Below, one piece after another: positions 4,294-64,000 of a stretch of 64,000 bases of DNA. The notes below the pieces were generated by a model. The model made no database searches. It saw only the letters and a program-made list of their open reading frames with translations, and was not told the origin of the DNA. The position numbers and the translations under genes are program-made. Position 1 is the first letter of the stretch; each line of letters starts with the position of its first letter. The DNA comes from Neptunicoccus cionae (GTDB lineage Bacteria; Pseudomonadota; Alphaproteobacteria; Rhodobacterales; Rhodobacteraceae): NCBI RefSeq assembly GCF_014643735.1, contig NZ_BMKA01000003.1, forward strand, positions 540,000 through 603,999. The letters are read 5' to 3'.

Positions 4294-5271
4294 ATGACGA
4301 CGATCCGATCAGTTGCAATTGGCATTGGACACTATCTGCCCGAACGTGTTGTTCCAAACGAGGAATTTGCAGCGAAACTGGATACGTCGGATGAGTGGAT
4401 CCAGTCCCGCTCCGGCATCCAGCGCCGCCATTTCGCTGCCGAAGGGGAATTCACCTCTGATCTGGCTGTGAAAGCTGCGGAAAAGGCGCTTTCCCATGCG
4501 GGGCTGTCTGGCAGCGACATTGACGCAATCGTGCTGGCCACCTCCACTCCGGACCAGACCTTTCCGTCTACCGCAACAAAAGTGCAGCACCGGCTGGGTA
4601 TGAAGGGCGGCTTTGCCTTTGACATCCAAGCCGTATGCGCCGGCTTTGCCTTTGCGCTGGCCAATGCGGATGCGTTGATCGTGTCGGGCCAAGCCAAGCG
4701 CGTTCTGGTGATCGGCGCAGAAACCTTCAGCCGAATTATGAACTGGGAAGACCGCACAACCTGCGTTCTGTTCGGGGACGGCGCAGGCGCGCTGATCCTT
4801 GAAGCCCAAGAAGGCACCGGCGAAAGCAGCGATCGCGGCATCCTCGCCACCGATCTGAATTCCGACGGGCAGTATAACGACCTTCTTTATGTGAACGGCG
4901 GCGTATCTTCGACCCAGTCCACCGGTCATCTGGTGATGGAAGGTCGTGAAGTCTTCAAACACGCGGTCTCCAAACTGGCGGCAACTGCAAATGCCTCCCT
5001 GCATAAGGCGGGCCTAACCCATGAAGATGTGGATTGGGTCGTCCCCCATCAGGCCAACCTGCGCATCATCAAAAGCACCGCGAGCAAGCTGGGCGTGCCG
5101 ATGGAAAAGGTCGTGGTCACGGTGCAGGATCACGGAAATACTTCTGCGGCCTCTATCCCGCTGGCGCTGTCAGTGGCTGTTGAAAAGGGTATGATCGAAA
5201 AGAACCAGATTCTGGTGGCCGAGGCCATCGGCGGCGGTCTTGCCTGGGGTTCGGTGGTCCTGCGCTGGTGA
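4294..5271 (+). CDS. fabH: Beta-ketoacyl-ACP synthase III
   Basis: Catalyses the first condensation of fatty-acid synthesis, acetyl-CoA plus malonyl-ACP. The 325-residue protein contains the complete C-H-N triad: C115 in AVCAGF, H252 in VPHQANLR, and N282 in DHGNTSAAS. The N-terminal SRSGIQRRH and the C-terminal [13 protein letters not shown] are also standard for FabH. It is the last gene of the rpmF-plsX-fabH run; the next gene, ihfA, has its own apparent promoter. No anomalies were seen. Confidence 0.97.
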
Positions 5272-5381
5272 TTCGCTCTGCGCATTGGGCTTTTCCCTTG
5301 GTGATCAGATGCTTGCCCGCCGCAGTCAAACTCCTTTCCCCAAAAGGACTTTCCACCGACCCAAGCTAATTATTTCTTATC

Positions 5382-5394
5382 TACCAATGCGTTG
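5382..5394 (+). promoter_or_regulatory. Near-consensus IHF binding site upstream of ihfA
   Basis: TACCAATGCGTTG matches the IHF consensus WATCAANNNNTTR at 12 of 13 positions; the only mismatch is C for T at position 3. It ends 3 bases upstream of the candidate -35 element of ihfA. The position suggests negative autoregulation, as known for enterobacterial himA. Occupancy is inference. Confidence 0.5.
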
Positions 5395-5397
5395 CAG

Positions 5398-5427
5398 TTG
5401 ACAGGTAAATCTGATTTCTCCTAGTGT
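5398..5427 (+). promoter_or_regulatory. Candidate ihfA promoter
   Basis: A consensus -35 TTGACA (5398-5403) is followed after 18 bases by TAGTGT (5422-5427), a weak -10. The ihfA ATG is 26 bases further on, with GGGAGA as the ribosome binding site. The -35 is convincing and the -10 less so. Confidence 0.45.
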
Positions 5428-5452
5428 TCGTGAATAGAACAGGGAGACAGTT

Positions 5453-5755
5453 ATGGGCGGTAAGACCTTAACACGTATGGATCTGAGTGAATCCGTGTTT
5501 CGCGAAGTTGGACTTTCACGCAATGAATCAGCCGATCTGGTGGAAAGCGTGCTGGATAATATCTCTGACGCTTTGGTCAGCGGCGAAAACGTAAAGATTT
5601 CGTCATTCGGCACCTTCAGCATCCGAGACAAGACGGAACGGATCGGTCGCAACCCGAAAACCGGCGAAGAGGTGCCAATTCGGCCCCGCCGCGTGTTGAC
5701 CTTTCGGCCCTCTCACCTAATGAAGGACCGTGTGGCCAACGGTAACAAGTCCTAA
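5453..5755 (+). CDS. ihfA: Integration host factor subunit alpha
   Basis: DNA-bending protein that pairs with IhfB and acts in the nucleoid, in transcription and in recombination. The 100 residues cover the whole HU/IHF fold: the N-terminal helices, SSFGTFS (about 50-56), the RNPKTGE arm (66-72) with the intercalating proline P68, and the [12 protein letters not shown]-terminal segment that distinguishes IHF-alpha. The ATG at 5453 has GGGAGA upstream. The partner ihfB is not in the window. A MerR-family gene follows after 15 bases, an order conserved in many proteobacteria. A candidate IHF site lies in its own promoter region. Confidence 0.95.
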
Positions 5756-5770
5756 AGGGACCAAGTGTAA

Positions 5771-6649
5771 ATGAGTAAATCTCCAGACGCGTTTCGCACC
5801 ATTTCAGAGGTTTCTGAATGGCTTGACACGCCAACATATGTCCTGCGTTTCTGGGAAAGTCGTTTTCCCCAGATCAAACCGGTAAAGCGTGCCGGCGGTC
5901 GGCGGTATTATCGCCCCGAGGATATGATGCTGTTGGGGGGCATCAAGAAACTTCTGCATTTTGACGAACTGACAATCAAGGCAGCCAAGGCGCTGTTGAA
6001 AGACAAGGGCGTCAAACATGTGATGGAACTGTCGCCCGATCTTAACACGCCAGTGGTGACGCCCCTGTCCACTGCGGATGCAGCGGATAAGGCGGACATT
6101 GCCAAAATGGTTAAAGAAACCTCGCAAGAGGCGCCCAAGCCCGCCGTAGAGGTACGTGTGGTCAAAAAAGCCAAACGCGCAGAACCGGAACAAGAGCCCG
6201 TCGCGGATACCGCTTCGGAACCGGTTACAGAATCAGCCCCTTCCCCAGAGGAAACGCCGATGACCCAAGACACGCCAAAAGAAGAGATTAAAGCCGCTGA
6301 CGGCAACGCGGATGCACCCGAGCCCGAAGCACCCGAACAGGACGCGGTGGAAAGCTCTGACGCTGACGACGTTATTGCCGATCCGGCAATGCAGGCCAAA
6401 GCAACAGAGGCTGAACGTCAGGCTGCCGCACAAGAAGCGGCACAGGCCAAAGCCGCCGCTGACGAAGAAGCCGATGATTGGGCCGGACTGGTGCCTGACA
6501 TGGTGATGAACGCCCCCTACCGGATCGGCACACCGGATGATTACGATTCCAAGACCATGGGCGAAATCGAAATGCTTTATTACAGCCTGCGCATGGCGCG
6601 CAACAAAATGCGCCGCTCCATCAATCAGCACGAAAACCGGCCGTCATAA
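5771..6649 (+). CDS. MerR family transcriptional regulator with acidic low-complexity region
   Basis: The N-terminal 75 residues form a MerR-type winged helix: [19 protein letters not shown], and [10 protein letters not shown], followed by [16 protein letters not shown]. Residues about 120-240 are an unusual acidic, Ala/Glu/Pro-rich stretch that is probably disordered. The last 45 residues are again conserved-looking ([18 protein letters not shown]) and may form a second small helical domain. No metal-binding cysteines are visible, so the inducer cannot be inferred. It sits 15 bases after ihfA, probably in one transcript. The total of 292 residues is longer than classical MerR because of the linker. 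Confidence 0.85.
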
Positions 6650-52732: not shown

Positions 52733-53077
52733 CATTCAACGGAGTTAAAGCGGCCACATCGAGCCAAGTTGCGGTAGCACGCTCTGTTACAAAGCTGGCG
52801 CCCCGCCTTTGCCTTTCGTCTAGCCAAACGCGCGATCCGGGCGGGTGCGACGAAGCGGGCAGCATACAAATTGATTTAATTTCAGGGCATTAACGTGATA
52901 ATTGAACCGAATTTCGCGGCAAACCTTCCCCCTAGGGAATGTTACAACGGCTGAACTACGTGTTATACACATCCATGTGAGTAGCTATTGATCACTTCGC
53001 TTGGCTACGATCATGTTACCGCACCTTGAAGGACTTCTACGGTGCCGCACACAGTTTTCGACAGAGAGGAACCTTAC
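52733..53077. other. Intergenic region upstream of the bufferin operon
   Basis: No gene is visible in these 345 bases. It presumably holds the operon promoter and control sites. Two dyads stand out: CACAT-CC-ATGTG (52968-52979) and TGATC (52989-52993) with GATCA (53009-53013). GGAATG at 52936 and CGTGTT at 52959 have the spacing of an ECF-type promoter, but the match is too loose to assign. AGAGGAA just before the bufA start is a good ribosome binding site. Confidence 0.5.
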
Positions 53078-53380
53078 ATGTCCAATACAGTTAAAACCCT
53101 TGCCGTTGCATCTGCCGTCGCAGCCGCAGTTGTGTCTCACGCCAATACTGCCTCTGCGCAGTCCAAAGAAAAATGCTACGGCGTCTCGCTTGCTGGTCAG
53201 AACGGCTGCGCTGCTGGTCCGGGCACATCCTGCGCTGGTACATCTACAGTAGACTACCAAGGCAACGCTTGGTCACTGGTAGATGCTGGCACTTGCACAG
53301 AAATCAACCTTCCCGAAATGGCTGACGGCTCCGCACGTACCGGTTCCACCGAAGCGCTGGAGCGTGATCTGCCAAGCTGA
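53078..53380 (+). CDS. bufA: Bufferin-type RiPP precursor (DUF2282), secreted
   Basis: A 100-residue peptide precursor. Residues 1-27 are a Sec signal peptide ([20 protein letters not shown], cleavage after TASA). The core carries four cysteines at 33, 44, 52 and 73 in the DUF2282 pattern [30 protein letters not shown] and GTC. Family knowledge: in bufferins the MNIO enzyme oxidatively modifies core cysteines, and the exported product binds copper. The ATG at 53078 was chosen because it opens the signal peptide and has AGAGGAA upstream. The C-terminal 25 residues are polar and may be disordered. Copper binding here is inferred. Confidence 0.92.
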
Positions 53381-53466
53381 TCCGCCCTCACACGATACAT
53401 GTGCTGGCCGCAGCGGTGGCCAGCACACGCCCAACCGACACCCCGTAACTTTTGGGATTTTCTAAA

Positions 53467-54336
53467 ATGCTGGATGCACAGTCAATCAGACCGGATCAGG
53501 TGCCAAATCGCGCCGGCGTCGGCTATAAGGCGCAGCATCTGGACGACATTCTGCAAAACCCCGACAGCATCGGCTGGATTGAAATTCACGCCGAAAACTA
53601 CATGGGTGACGGAGGGCGCCCGATTGCCCAACTGCGCCACCTGCGGGAACGGTTTGCGGTGTCCTGCCACGGTGTTGGCTTGTCTATCGGCGCGGAAGGC
53701 CCGCTGGATCAAGATCATCTGAACCGCCTGAAAAAGCTGGTGGATTGGCTGGAACCGGGGCTGTTTTCCGAACATCTTGCCTGGTCCACCCATGACAGCC
53801 ATTTCCTGAACGATCTTCTACCCGTGCCTTACACACAAGCCACCGTTGATCGCGTCGTGGCCCATATCAATCAGGTTCAAGACACGGTGGGGCAGCAGAT
53901 GTTGCTGGAAAACCCGTCAACTTACGTGGCGTTTGAGGAAAGCGACCGCACAGAGATCGCATTCCTGAGCGAGGTCGCCTCCCGTTCCGGCTGCGGCCTA
54001 CTGCTTGATGTGAACAACGTTTTTGTCTCGGCTACGAACCAGAATTACTCGCCCGAAGGCTACATCGATGCTTTCCCCACCGATCTGGTCGGAGAACTGC
54101 ATCTTGGGGGCCATGAAGAAGATGCGGATGATTTCGGGGCTACTTTGCTGATTGATAGCCATTCCCGCCCTGTGGTCGATCCGGTTTGGGCGCTTTACGA
54201 ATACACGCTGGCCAAGGCGGGCCCCCGCCCCACCTTGATCGAATGGGACAATGACATTCCCGAATGGGATACGCTCGCCACGGAAGCGGCCCGCGCGGAT
54301 CGCTTGTTGTCTTCAGTTGCGGCGCGCGCAGACTAA
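53467..54336 (+). CDS. bufB: DUF692 multinuclear iron oxidative enzyme (MNIO), bufferin maturase
   Basis: A 289-residue TIM-barrel enzyme of the DUF692 family, which uses two or three iron ions to modify cysteines in peptides. Candidate metal ligands are H41 and E43 (EIHAENY), H68 (SCHGVG), E102-H103 (SEHLAW), E149 (LENPST), D181/N183 (LLDVNNV), H212 and H216 (LHLGGHEE), and E259 (IEWD). Substrate is expected to be the bufA peptide. ATG at 53467 is used; a TTG 15 bases earlier is less likely. Stop TAA shares a base with the next start (TAATG). Confidence 0.93.
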   Translation: MLDAQSIRPDQVPNRAGVGYKAQHLDDILQNPDSIGWIEIHAENYMGDGGRPIAQLRHLRERFAVSCHGVGLSIGAEGPLDQDHLNRLKKLVDWLEPGLFSEHLAWSTHDSHFLNDLLPVPYTQATVDRVVAHINQVQDTVGQQMLLENPSTYVAFEESDRTEIAFLSEVASRSGCGLLLDVNNVFVSATNQNYSPEGYIDAFPTDLVGELHLGGHEEDADDFGATLLIDSHSRPVVDPVWALYEYTLAKAGPRPTLIEWDNDIPEWDTLATEAARADRLLSSVAARAD

Positions 54337-55082
54337 TGGCTGCGCAGTCCCAATTTGCACAAGCCCTGCTAGATCCCGCGCAGCCCGTGCCGGAGGGGGT
54401 CATTGATCCCGAGGGTCGGCCCGCAGGCAAAAGGTTCGATGTCTATCGCAACAATGTCGTGGTCAGCCTGCTGGATGCGATGGAGACTGCCTTTCCGGTG
54501 ATCCAAAAACTGATCGGCGCAGAGAACTTTCGCAATCTCGCAGGTCTCTATGTCCGGGAGCACCCGCCCGCATCCCCGCTCCTGATGTTTTACGGCGAGG
54601 ATTTCCCCGCCTTTCTGCAAGGCTTCACACCGCTGTCCCATGTGCCGTATCTCGCTGATGTAGCCCGTCTGGAACTGATGCGGCGCAGCGCTTACCACGC
54701 GGCGGACACAACACCTGTCGCAGCAGATGCGCTGGCACAGGTAGCGCCCGACAAATTGATGGACCTGCGCCTGACGCTCGCCCCGTCCCTTCGCATTCTG
54801 ACCAGCGCCTATCCGGTGGTGGCAATATGGAACTACAACATGCTGCCGGACGCGCCAAAGCCACCGGCAACATCACAAACCACCCTGATTACCCGCCCCG
54901 AACTTGATCTTGAAATGCAGGAAATCAGCCCAGATATGGCAGCGTTTCTTGGCAGTTTACAGGCGGGAAACACCCTCGGGGAGGCTTTGGCAAACGCCAC
55001 TACAAACGACACCGCATTTGATCTGACAGCCGGAATTGTATTGATGCTTCAACACGGCCTGATCATCGACATACTCTCCTAA
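54336..55082 (+). CDS. bufC: DUF2063 protein, partner of the MNIO enzyme
   Basis: The 248-residue protein begins MAAQSQFAQALLDPAQPVPEGV, then has the DUF2063 block RFDVYRNNVVVSLLDAMETAFPVIQKLIG and LPHVPYLADVARLE-like residues (HVPYLADVARLELMRR). In known systems this partner binds the precursor and delivers it to the MNIO enzyme. The C-terminal half (about 165-248) is a second domain ending in a hydrophobic helix. It overlaps bufB by one base and is followed by the DoxX gene after 10 bases, so all are one transcript. Confidence 0.9.
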   Translation: MAAQSQFAQALLDPAQPVPEGVIDPEGRPAGKRFDVYRNNVVVSLLDAMETAFPVIQKLIGAENFRNLAGLYVREHPPASPLLMFYGEDFPAFLQGFTPLSHVPYLADVARLELMRRSAYHAADTTPVAADALAQVAPDKLMDLRLTLAPSLRILTSAYPVVAIWNYNMLPDAPKPPATSQTTLITRPELDLEMQEISPDMAAFLGSLQAGNTLGEALANATTNDTAFDLTAGIVLMLQHGLIIDILS

Positions 55083-55092
55083 AGGACACTCC

Positions 55093-55647
55093 ATGACAGC
55101 AGCAATAAGCTTCTACCACACCCTGATGGCCTCCGTGCTGCGTGCGCTGGAAGGCTGGTTCCTCCCCACTCTGGCACGGTTCAGCTTTGCCGCAGTTCTG
55201 CTGTTTTACTTCTGGAACTCAGCCTTCACCAAAACTGGCGCAGGTTTTTTTGGATTTTTATCCCCGACCGAGAACGCCTATATCCAGATTTTTCCAAAGA
55301 AATTTGAAGCCGCGGGCTACGATATTTCCCAGATGGGTGCGTTTGAATGGTTGGTTGCTGTGGCGGGAACCACGGCGGAGTTTTTGTTGCCGTTCCTGAT
55401 CCTTATCGGCCTGTTCACCCGTCTCGCCGCCCTTGGAATGGTCGGCTTTGTGGTTGTACAAAGTCTTGTGGATATTTACGGCCACGGCGTTGGCGGTGCA
55501 ACACTCGGGGCTTGGTTTGACGGCCCGTCCAACAGCCTGATACTGGATCAGCGCCTGATCTGGATACTGCTGTTGGCGGTGCTGTTCGTCAAAGGCGCCG
55601 GCCCGATTTCACTGGACCGTCTGCTGCGGCGAACTACCGAAACTTAA
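55093..55647 (+). CDS. DoxX-like membrane protein of the bufferin operon
   Basis: A 184-residue protein with four predicted transmembrane helices (about 25-45, 83-105, 112-130, 155-172) in the DoxX pattern: LARFSFAAVLLFYFWNSAFTK, then EWLVAVAGTTAEFLLPFLILIGLFTRLAALGMV. DoxX proteins are common fourth members of bufferin operons; their role is unclear, with redox handling or membrane tethering proposed. Start is preceded by AAAGGACAC. The end overlaps the facing ArsC-like gene by four bases. Confidence 0.85.
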   Translation: MTAAISFYHTLMASVLRALEGWFLPTLARFSFAAVLLFYFWNSAFTKTGAGFFGFLSPTENAYIQIFPKKFEAAGYDISQMGAFEWLVAVAGTTAEFLLPFLILIGLFTRLAALGMVGFVVVQSLVDIYGHGVGGATLGAWFDGPSNSLILDQRLIWILLLAVLFVKGAGPISLDRLLRRTTET

Positions 55648-61138: not shown

Positions 61139-64000
61139 TTACGCAGGCGTCAGGTTAAGGTCATCAATGACAACACTCGAACCATCCAGCGCGTAGATTT
61201 CAACCGCATTGATGCCATCGAATTTGCTATCGAAGTCGGCAGAAGGATCGTCAAACAGCGTAGTCCCGAAATCGAGGAGTGTGGCACTTGTAGAGGCATC
61301 AACAACGAAGTCAAAATGATCTACTTCGACGTAATCCGCGTTGTAAGTTTTGAAACTCGAATCGGGGGTCGTGTCGATAAATTCTGCGCGATACGAAACG
61401 ATGCGGATTGTGACGCCATCCAATGCGACCGCGTTCAGTGACAGCCTCTCCAGATTGAATTCCGCGCCATAACCAAAGCTCTCGCCCCCACCTCGCGATG
61501 CCATCGTCGTGCCGCTGGTCGCGAAAGTCGCGTATGACTCCGCGTCCTCTATTCGGACTGTCGCTGCATCGTCATAGATTGCGAAAGGGTTACTGGCGCC
61601 GTCGACCGGCGGCGTGATCAACACGTTGTCACCGCCTGTTGTCGTTTGCCCGTTGGCCACGCCTTCCTGCGCCCGCGAAGGATCTTCGGCATATTCATCG
61701 GTTTCCATCACCGAGGCTTCAGTGTTGAAAATGAAACCGTCCAAGCTATCAATCGAAACTGAATTGCTATCTGCCGAAGAATATTCCTCAAAATCGAACA
61801 CCGATGGTGTGGGGGCAACTGCATCCGCAGGATCGGATACGGCAATGTTAACGCTTGCTTCAACAGATGCATTTTCAGCGCCGGAATCGTCCGTTACGGT
61901 AAAGTTCAACGAAATCGGCACATCTTCACCATCCGCAAGCCCCAGATCCGCAATGTCAAAGGTCAGGATATTGCTCGTCCCGTCAAAACTGCTTGTGATC
62001 GTATCAGGCGTCGCGCCGCCTTCATCGCTACCAAAAGATACTGAAAGATCGGAAAAAGTAAGCCCGTCGCCATCGGAATCACTGACAAACAGGTCCAGAT
62101 CCAAATTGACGGACGTCCCTACAAAATGGTCGCGAGATAGCTCGGTTCGCTCTAGGTTATCAGGATTGTATGAGACCAGATCATGTCCGTCGGTAACAAT
62201 TTCCAACTCGTACAGCGGACCAGCGACGGATGGCGGATTATTCTCGGCAGGCGTTTCGGTATACGGCCCATCCACATTGAGCGTCACCGTCCCGACCACG
62301 GTTGCATTTGTCTCTCCGGTGTTGTCATCCACGGTTACCGCAAACTCGGTCGTGATAGATTGGCCCGCCTCCAAAGTGAAAATATCCGGATCGGTCCAAA
62401 ACACATGCAGATCTGTGCCACGCAGCTCGTACCCTAAGACGGTGCCGCTGTTAATCGTCACGCCGAATGACAAATCATCCAGATCCGCATCCGATGCCAA
62501 AGCCGCAAGGTCGATCACAATATCCCGGTTAGTCGCGTTTTCATCCACAACTGTATCGGTAAACACCGGCTGGTTGTTCGGTGTATCTACCTCCTCTTCC
62601 GGCCCAGCACCATCTTCAATGGTCAGTTGAATGATGCCGGTGTCAAAGCTGTTGGCTTTGCCTTCCCCGTCGTTCACCTCGTAGGAGATTTCCAGAGCAA
62701 TCTCCGGCGCGACACCTGTTTCTTCATCCGGGACAATGTTGAACTGTGCAGGGTCGATCGTCAGCACACCGTCAACCAGTGTATATTCAACCGTCCCGTC
62801 ACGACCGGAGCCCGAAATCGCAATATTTCCAAACGTAAGGACCGTGCCTGCATCCTCGTCTGATGCAAGTTCGTTCAGATCAATGACAATCGGATCGATA
62901 TCACCCTTGCGTATTTCGGCATCCTGCGCCACCGGCGCATTGTTGGTGTTGATTGGCGTTGGATCGTCCGAGCCGTTCACAGTCAGATCAAACGACATCG
63001 ACACAGAACTGTTGGCAGTGCCACTGCCGTCATCTGCTTTAAACGTCATAATCCCGTTGAAAACCTCGCCCGCACCCAAGGCCAGTTCGCTGGGATCAAA
63101 GCTGAACACACTGCCCGTGAAGGCCGTCCCAACCTGTACTGCACGACCTGTGTCAGCATTAATCAAGCTGACGAGAGAGTAGTCCAGATCGGTGGTTTCA
63201 ACATCGCTCGCATAACTGGAGAGATCGAAGCCGAACGCGCCGTCTGCCTCGTTTATAACGGCATCAGCCACTGTTCCGACCAGCACGGGCGCATCATTTA
63301 CGGAAGCGACCTCTACGACCACAGTCTTCGTAACCGTCCCGCCGTTGCCATCGATGACAGAGTAGCTGAAGCTGTCAGTGCCAAAGAAGTTTGCGGCAGG
63401 TTTATAAATGAAGCCACCGTCAGACGCGACTGTCACCGCGCCATTCGCGGCGTCAGTTTCCAGAGCGAAGACCAGACTGTCGCCTTCCACATCCGTAGCC
63501 AGCAAAGTTCCTGTCAGGTCATTGTCTTCCGCCACAGCCGCCTCTGCGGTCAGCGCTTCGGGCGCGTCATTAACGGCGTTCACCGTAAGGTTGACCGTCT
63601 GCGTATCCGACCCGCCGTTTCCATCAGTGACCGTAAAGGTAAAGCTATCCGTGCCATTAAAGTCTGCACCGGGTTTATAGGCATAAGTTCCGTCCGCACG
63701 CAGCGCAACCGCGCCCTTCGCACCGTCTGTTTCAAGGGCAAAGGTCAGGATGTCCCCATCAATGTCACTGGCCACCAGAGTACCGGAGATCAATCCATCC
63801 TCATCACCAACGCCAGAAGCCGCCTGCGCAACCGGCGCGTCGTTTACAGGGGCTACGGTGATATTAACCGTTTGCGTATCTGTGCCGCCGTTCCCGTCAC
63901 TTACGGTGTAGGTGAAGCTGTCAGAGCCGTTAAAATCCGCATTGGGCGTGTAAGAATAGCTGCCATCGCTTGCCATAGCGACGGATCCATTGGCACCATC
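61139..64000 (-). CDS. Giant cadherin/Ig-like repeat surface protein (5' end missing)
   Basis: The frame is open to the right edge, so the start lies outside; 953 C-terminal residues are visible. Residues from the edge to about position 245 are tandem repeats of about 95 residues with FNGTDSFTFTVTDGNGGSDTQTV and VNDAPVA, the VCBS/tandem-95 and cadherin-like pattern. The next part has more divergent repeats (about 115 residues each) and acidic calcium-like Asp/Asn motifs. The last 230 residues are a distinct domain ending in VVIDDLNLTPA. No RTX GGxGxD repeats or PEP-CTERM are seen in the visible part. Adhesion or biofilm is the likely role. Confidence 0.8.
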   Translation of the reverse strand, partial: DGANGSVAMASDGSYSYTPNADFNGSDSFTYTVSDGNGGTDTQTVNITVAPVNDAPVAQAASGVGDEDGLISGTLVASDIDGDILTFALETDGAKGAVALRADGTYAYKPGADFNGTDSFTFTVTDGNGGSDTQTVNLTVNAVNDAPEALTAEAAVAEDNDLTGTLLATDVEGDSLVFALETDAANGAVTVASDGGFIYKPAANFFGTDSFSYSVIDGNGGTVTKTVVVEVASVNDAPVLVGTVADAVINEADGAFGFDLSSYASDVETTDLDYSLVSLINADTGRAVQVGTAFTGSVFSFDPSELALGAGEVFNGIMTFKADDGSGTANSSVSMSFDLTVNGSDDPTPINTNNAPVAQDAEIRKGDIDPIVIDLNELASDEDAGTVLTFGNIAISGSGRDGTVEYTLVDGVLTIDPAQFNIVPDEETGVAPEIALEISYEVNDGEGKANSFDTGIIQLTIEDGAGPEEEVDTPNNQPVFTDTVVDENATNRDIVIDLAALASDADLDDLSFGVTINSGTVLGYELRGTDLHVFWTDPDIFTLEAGQSITTEFAVTVDDNTGETNATVVGTVTLNVDGPYTETPAENNPPSVAGPLYELEIVTDGHDLVSYNPDNLERTELSRDHFVGTSVNLDLDLFVSDSDGDGLTFSDLSVSFGSDEGGATPDTITSSFDGTSNILTFDIADLGLADGEDVPISLNFTVTDDSGAENASVEASVNIAVSDPADAVAPTPSVFDFEEYSSADSNSVSIDSLDGFIFNTEASVMETDEYAEDPSRAQEGVANGQTTTGGDNVLITPPVDGASNPFAIYDDAATVRIEDAESYATFATSGTTMASRGGGESFGYGAEFNLERLSLNAVALDGVTIRIVSYRAEFIDTTPDSSFKTYNADYVEVDHFDFVVDASTSATLLDFGTTLFDDPSADFDSKFDGINAVEIYALDGSSVVIDDLNLTPA

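Follow-up and report, generated by a model that had tools for sequence, protein, structure and literature searches.

The 64,000-nucleotide stretch of the Neptunicoccus cionae genome analyzed here (contig NZ_BMKA01000003.1, positions 540,000 to 603,999 of the forward strand; hereafter the window) carries at its positions 53078–55647 a four-gene operon which is very probably a bufferin-1 (captophorin-class) copper-buffering locus for a ribosomally synthesized and post-translationally modified peptide (RiPP), with an operator-aided sigma-70 promoter and a dosage-setting stem-loop. All four genes lie on the forward strand in the canonical bufferin-1 order: bufA (53078–53380, 100 residues) encodes a DUF2282 (Buf1) precursor (PF10048, 81 bits, cut-off 22.4); bufB (53467–54336, 289 residues from ATG) a multinuclear nonheme iron-dependent oxidative enzyme (MNIO) of the DUF692 type (PF05114, MbnB_TglH_ChrH, 349.9 bits, cut-off 25); bufC (54336–55082, 248 residues) a DUF2063 partner protein (PF09836, 94.5 bits, cut-off 27.2, residues 3–94 only); and the last gene (55093–55647, 184 residues) a DoxX-family protein (PF07681, 24.8 bits, cut-off 23.6). 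An original prediction, made from the letters of the window, had named these four open reading frames, their families and order, a one-base overlap of bufB with bufC and a bufferin-type function. The coordinates and profile scores bear out the gene calls: the bufB stop and bufC start have one base in common (TAATG), and the search that it had proposed with DUF2282, DUF692, and DUF2063 profiles placed all three above cut-off. The bufferin-type function is upheld by families and gene order together with the four cysteines, enzyme residues, and BufC fold described below. The operon is a further member of an already described RiPP class, to which the operator and stem-loop add control features.

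For comparison of loci, the best 80 of 571 BufB relatives were used, and these are thus near relatives. In every one of the 80, bufA stands just 5' of bufB and a bufC match is present; a DoxX match was found in 78, and the other two (L006 and L056) lie on short contigs that end soon after bufC. Because the 80 nearest relatives keep the gene set, the operon is no chance arrangement. BufB itself is 92% identical to its counterpart in Amylibacter cionae and 88% to that in Neptunicoccus sediminis. One relative, L049, carries a tandem bufA pair (5252–5551 and 5688–5987) ahead of a single bufB.

The enzyme places the operon within its wider family. BufB scores 374 bits (cut-off 310) with NF050167 MNIO_BufB, the curated NCBI model for bufferin maturases, and falls below the NCBI cut-offs of the HvfB, ApyH, MbnB, and ChrH models; the HvfB equivalog model gives 245.9 bits against a cut-off of 360, and that for MbnB, at 45.9 against 325, is far short. 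Since the bufferin model is passed and those of the sister groups are not, the operon belongs with the bufferins. Twelve residues (H68, E102, H103, E148, N149, D181, N183, H212, H216, D230, H232, and E259) are unchanged in 81/81 BufB sequences and form a candidate metal site, in line with the full set of possible iron ligands claimed at the outset. Three of them, N183, D230, and H232, map to N175, D242, and H244 of HvfB (by hand, via a phmmer alignment to 3bww), each of which is essential in that enzyme, replacement abolishing activity (PMC13419390).

The precursor has cysteines at positions 33, 44, 52, and 73, as first read, and all four are invariant in the 48 precursors aligned (of 81 available), as are many surrounding residues. 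Its N-terminus is an alanine-rich stretch that by eye ends in A-S-A and is a probable Sec signal peptide. At the other end, a tail of residues 87–100 (window 53336–53377) extends beyond the Pfam match; it is nearly fixed in the same 48 precursors, with the majority form RMGSLEALxRDLPA, and variable in the class-level sample. For BufC, a predicted model with 47 of 81 sequences aligned has a predicted local distance difference test (pLDDT) score of 93.1, and its three best matches among 135 in the PDB are TglI 8hci_A (E 1.1e-6, 271 columns, template modeling [TM] score 0.62, root mean square deviation [rmsd] 7.1), TglI 8hi7 (E 2.4e-5, 272 columns), and NGO1945 3dee (E 9.3e-5, 224 columns, TM 0.55, rmsd 5.5). 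By this resemblance of fold, the second half of BufC, beyond the Pfam match, is a probable RiPP recognition element (RRE)-type domain. The HvfC equivalog model reaches 67 bits against a cut-off of 142, and the cut-off of the HvfX model is likewise not reached.

How the operon is controlled had been left open, and that question can now be narrowed, although not as far as naming a regulator: a conserved operator lies 5' of bufA, and no SigF/NrsF pair adjoins the genes. Expectation-maximization over up to 300 bp 5' of 80 bufA genes (79 loci plus the window; L065 was left out because its bufA is cut) yielded a 30-bp motif at a median of -116 from bufA, which led the search at widths 20 and 30. This tandem-dyad operator, at 52952–52981 on the forward strand of the window (consensus TNACG-N4-CGTGA-N2-CACG-N4-TGTGA), is present in 70/80 upstream regions at a call threshold of 11 bits and within 140 bp of bufA; the top score in 400 shuffles was 0.9. 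Two short words keep a fixed distance from the operator over those 70 sequences, TNG at its position +30 and TANNNT at +54, and in the window a weak -35 (TAGCTA, 52982–52987) and a -10 (TACGAT, 53006–53011) make up a forward-strand putative promoter (52982–53011) of conserved spacing. The layout suggests a putative sigma-70-like promoter with an activator site abutting the -35; a generic sigma-70 scan does not report 52982–53011. As the first matrix took in the window itself, a second was built from 60 sites, all outside the window's clade, and run over both strands of the 64 kb, where 52952–52981 ranks first at 10.6 bits and the next match reaches 5.8.

The reach of the operator was followed in a family-level sample of 198 genomes, in which a scan allowing up to one mismatch gave at least 150 matches, with both strands counted and a few sites entered twice. 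Among the matches listed, 37 of 42 exact ones (either strand) lie 153–205 bp ahead of a DUF2282 domain, as against 39 of the 108 with one mismatch that precede such a domain; the 69 elsewhere are expected of a looser pattern. The 76 matches near DUF2282 are spread over 71 genomes, and about half of the 140 DUF2282 genomes show a listed match. With one mismatch allowed, ten genomes scanned singly had one site each, plus one extra, and with two mismatches 19 of 20 had a match. Sorted by hand, the 33 matches of the latter scan comprise 19 bufA sites, three reverse-strand readings of these, the one extra site, and 10 others, compared with 11 for a reversed-pattern control. A stricter pattern without mismatches, applied to a wider set of taxa, was found in 2/385 genomes (G037 and G116, both also in the family sample) and would miss weak copies such as that of the window. 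Taken as sequence patterns, these counts make the operator look like a family-level site with almost a single target.

Some matches away from bufA deserve mention. Actibacterium pelagium (L016) has a second exact operator ahead of a secreted protein that is YHS-like by eye (L125, 1909–2355; also L083, 1632–2078), with TetR-like and ferritin/VIT-like genes nearby, again by eye. At L095 and L123, a further two of the five exact non-buf sites, no metal gene was apparent by eye, and following the non-buf motif matches yielded no nameable regulator gene. A different dyad, AACCTTCC-N6-GGAATGTT (52922–52943, no strand assigned), lies 5' of the operator in the window and is a possible second cis-element. 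The related pattern AACATTYC-N5-7-GGAA, on either strand, occurs in 13/80 upstream regions (mean 0.06 in shuffles) at varying positions, nine of the 13 lying at a greater distance upstream and in the opposite orientation. A CueR/MerR reading of this dyad was dropped on account of its spacing of 6 and its occurrence in merely 13/80 regions; the CueR dyad has a spacing of 7. No paper on the operator or the stem-loop was found in the literature searched, a weak search in which "bufferin" at times also matched "buffering" and few subscription papers were included.

In two other genera, operons of this kind answer to sigma factors. Those of Caulobacter belong to the SigF regulon, with the promoter GTAACC-N16-CGAA and the anti-sigma factor NrsF (PMC3511200), and Sinorhizobium uses RpoE7, an extracytoplasmic function (ECF) factor of group ECF16, for the corresponding unit (PMC6180224). 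NrsF was sought in 29 genomes of unstated completeness, 19 bearing the operator and 10 without it. It was found in 0/19 of the former, which include the three closest relatives L001–L003, and in 4/10 of the latter (L027, L036, L056, and L063). In three of these four, L027, L036, and L063, sigF-nrsF adjoins bufA, and GTAAC-N17-CGAA at -74 to -77 agrees with the SigF consensus given in PMC3511200. The fourth, L056, has an nrsF gene that was not seen beside buf, and it lacks a strict SigF-type promoter. The split between operator and NrsF (19/0 versus 6/4) has a Fisher p of about 0.009, calculated by hand and not corrected for shared descent. In the class-level sample, a strict SigF-type promoter precedes bufA at 6/29 readable loci. 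From these sequence patterns we hold with moderate confidence that SigF/NrsF and the operator are two alternative control regimes. The larger proposal is that, across much of the family Rhodobacteraceae, bufferin operons left the ECF16 circuit for a near-single-target activator at a TCACG/CGTGA operator beside a sigma-70 promoter, the two regimes being mutually exclusive; we give this an even chance, and if true, it would mean that a single RiPP has a metal-responsive regulator of its own, one not described so far.

A further element lies within the operon. The bufA-bufB gap of the window holds a stem-loop of 12 pairs without a T-tract (53400–53427, forward strand), and stems of 8 pairs or longer recur in 77/80 such gaps (L049 was dropped from this set for its second bufA), compared with 146/1600 shuffles (9%) and 30/237 coding windows of equal length. 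The stems include 62 distinct 5' octamers, and a T-rich stretch follows in 7/77, so that base pairing persists as the sequence varies and the structure is mostly no usual terminator. Folding energy is more than 2 standard deviations below shuffles in 52/80 gaps (median z -2.6); the fold of the window's own RNA is modest (z -2.14, 6/200 shuffles as good). In the class-level sample, a stem-loop lies within 90 nucleotides at 18/29 loci versus 117/580 shuffles, one of 30 loci being unreadable. By analogy, the stem-loop probably acts in processing or partial attenuation, giving more precursor than enzyme; in other RiPP operons, such as that of nisin, structures of this kind have such a role.

Together, these components can be envisioned as a pathway modeled on Caulobacter, where the Buf1 peptide carries thiooxazoles, chelates Cu(I) and Cu(II) after Sec export, and aids growth in excess copper, its central cysteines being modified and the first and last joined in a disulfide (PMC12452194). 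In the window, BufA would carry a Sec signal peptide doubling as leader, as in work cited in PMC13419390, and BufC would present it to BufB, whose iron center would oxidize Cys 44 and 52 to 5-thiooxazoles. The modified BufA would then be exported by Sec, the outer Cys 33 and 73 would form a disulfide, and the thiooxazoles would bind excess copper in the periplasm, with DoxX as an accessory membrane protein; modification, copper binding, and export are all inferred here by analogy. Meanwhile, an activator responding to some signal would sit on the tandem-dyad operator and aid the sigma-70-type promoter, replacing the SigF/NrsF of Caulobacter, and the stem-loop would raise precursor over enzyme.

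Three other accounts keep part of this scheme and change the rest. One retains the operon and supposes that it serves chiefly against something other than copper, whether gold, cadmium, or chromate or else thiol stress, the peptide being a general soft-metal or redox buffer. Chromate and cadmium do induce the Caulobacter SigF regulon that holds these genes (PMC3511200), the gig genes of Cupriavidus respond to gold as well as copper (PMC10304878), and the window operon sits after genes of assimilatory sulfate reduction. We nonetheless think this unlikely, as the Caulobacter peptide chelates copper and helps when that metal is in excess (PMC12452194), and the upstream neighbor in 63/80 relatives is a cluster named thrS (threonyl-tRNA synthetase) by eye, with cys-gene clusters in just 9. 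Another holds that the operator is not bound by a regulator and instead belongs to a core promoter of unusual build or acts through DNA structure. Its fixed distance from the conserved TANNNT and its near privacy to the bufA promoter in the scanned genomes would suit such a role; however, tandem half-sites of about 29 bp upstream of a separate -35/-10 pair are longer than core promoters, and the second exact copy in A. pelagium precedes a different gene, so we consider this account, too, a doubtful one.

The last alternative is that SigF/NrsF controls the window operon from elsewhere in the genome. The search of the source organism covered the 64-kb window alone, so absence of the pair is not proven, and L056 illustrates an nrsF gene with none seen beside buf. 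Against this, a scan of neighbors found no sigF-nrsF pair beside the window operon, no promoter of the GTAACC-N16-CGAA type lies ahead of its bufA, and tblastn with the NrsF and SigF of L063 gave only a 13-residue match in the window (E 0.91). As the genomes of L001–L003, the nearest relatives, likewise yielded no NrsF, control by a distant pair appears very improbable, and the operator-aided sigma-70 promoter is preferred.

Several observations weigh against parts of the preferred scheme, that of a copper-buffering operon under an operator and stem-loop. Six genomes (L005, L007, L023, L033, L043, and L053) have neither operator nor NrsF, and the split between the two may simply follow lineage. 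The window's operator, at 10.6 of a possible 44.2 bits, is a weak copy, and by the outside-clade matrix four members of the window's clade (L004, L005, L007, and L008) stay under 5 bits. At width 12, the word TGTAACATT, at scattered positions, outscored the operator; considered as a candidate in its own right, it was rejected, being mostly far upstream and giving a strict SigF-type promoter only in L027, L036, and L063. Among the proteins, the structure model of BufA is poor (pLDDT 56) and too low for use; the top three structural matches of BufC have rmsd values of 5.5 to 8.4 and TM scores of 0.55 to 0.62, and a sequence search of the PDB gave no convincing TglI match (E 0.81); DoxX is only just above its Pfam cut-off. 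The scheme as a whole draws on sequence and predicted structure, with a regulator that we infer.

On the 5' side of the operon in the window are genes for siroheme synthase, sulfite reductase, 3'-phosphoadenosine 5'-phosphosulfate (PAPS) reductase, a DUF934 protein, and an FAD/NAD-binding reductase, and on its 3' side one gene of the ArsC family and one for a cold-shock protein. An ArsC-like cluster (named by eye) lies downstream in 67/80 relatives; given the counts for thrS (63) and cys clusters (9), the sulfur genes look like a trait of the window's clade and not of the bufferin system. Neither a copper regulator nor a copper ATPase occurs among the scanned neighbors, which agrees with what had been noted from the letters; Pfam profiles were run on 34 of the window's proteins. 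Farther off, the window encodes a MerR-family regulator (PF13411, 5771–6649), distant from the operon, and a 945-residue protein with repeated Big_9/cadherin-like domains (61139–63976).

The suggestion that this may be the main unusual system of the window does not survive wider sampling. DUF2282 occurs in 140/198 family-level, 100/289 class-level, and 20/31 genus-level genomes (the last around A. cionae), and the class is already described (PMC12452194); the bufferin operon is a common trait, ordinary for the family Rhodobacteraceae. Relatives of BufB (MNIO) were found on 352/72,556 plasmid records (for example, NZ_CP110385.1); of these, 129 are predicted to be conjugative. With the window, a recently described class of copper-buffering RiPPs gains a marine member, and the operator, as a 30-bp target, bears on how bufferin operons without an adjoining sigma/anti-sigma pair sense stress.

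Comparison with known systems sets the operon among its kin. In CC3254–CC3257 of Caulobacter vibrioides/crescentus, the genes for DUF2282, DUF692, DUF2063, and DoxX follow in an order identical to that of the window (PMC3511200); that operon is driven by SigF with NrsF, whereas the window has no such pair adjoining and a different cis-element. Cupriavidus metallidurans gigPABT likewise unites a small four-cysteine periplasmic precursor, a DUF2063 protein, and a DoxX-like protein in one operon, but its neighbors include rpoQ, a divergently oriented gene for an ECF sigma factor, and an anti-sigma gene (PMC10304878), neither of which adjoins the window operon. Sinorhizobium meliloti SMb20530–SMb20527 shares the DUF692 and DUF2063 genes within a four-gene unit and, unlike the window, is under the ECF16 factor RpoE7 (PMC6180224). 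Also related are the oxazolin/fontiphorin systems (HvfABC, FonABC), which have an MNIO, a DUF2063-type partner, and a 5-thiooxazole product (PMC13097082, PMC13419390); their precursor consists of EGKCG repeats where that of the window is DUF2282, and the window proteins stay below the HvfB, HvfC, and HvfX cut-offs. Methanobactin (MbnABC) also employs an enzyme of the MNIO family, and its precursor without a signal peptide, oxazolone-thioamide chemistry, and role in copper acquisition (PMC12452194) differ from the bufferin scheme. The window instead has the features of a bufferin-1 biosynthetic gene cluster, whose peptides PMC13097082 classes as captophorins: a four-cysteine DUF2282 precursor, an MNIO following it, a DUF2063 partner with a probable RRE-type domain, and DoxX, which is common in such clusters and not universal.

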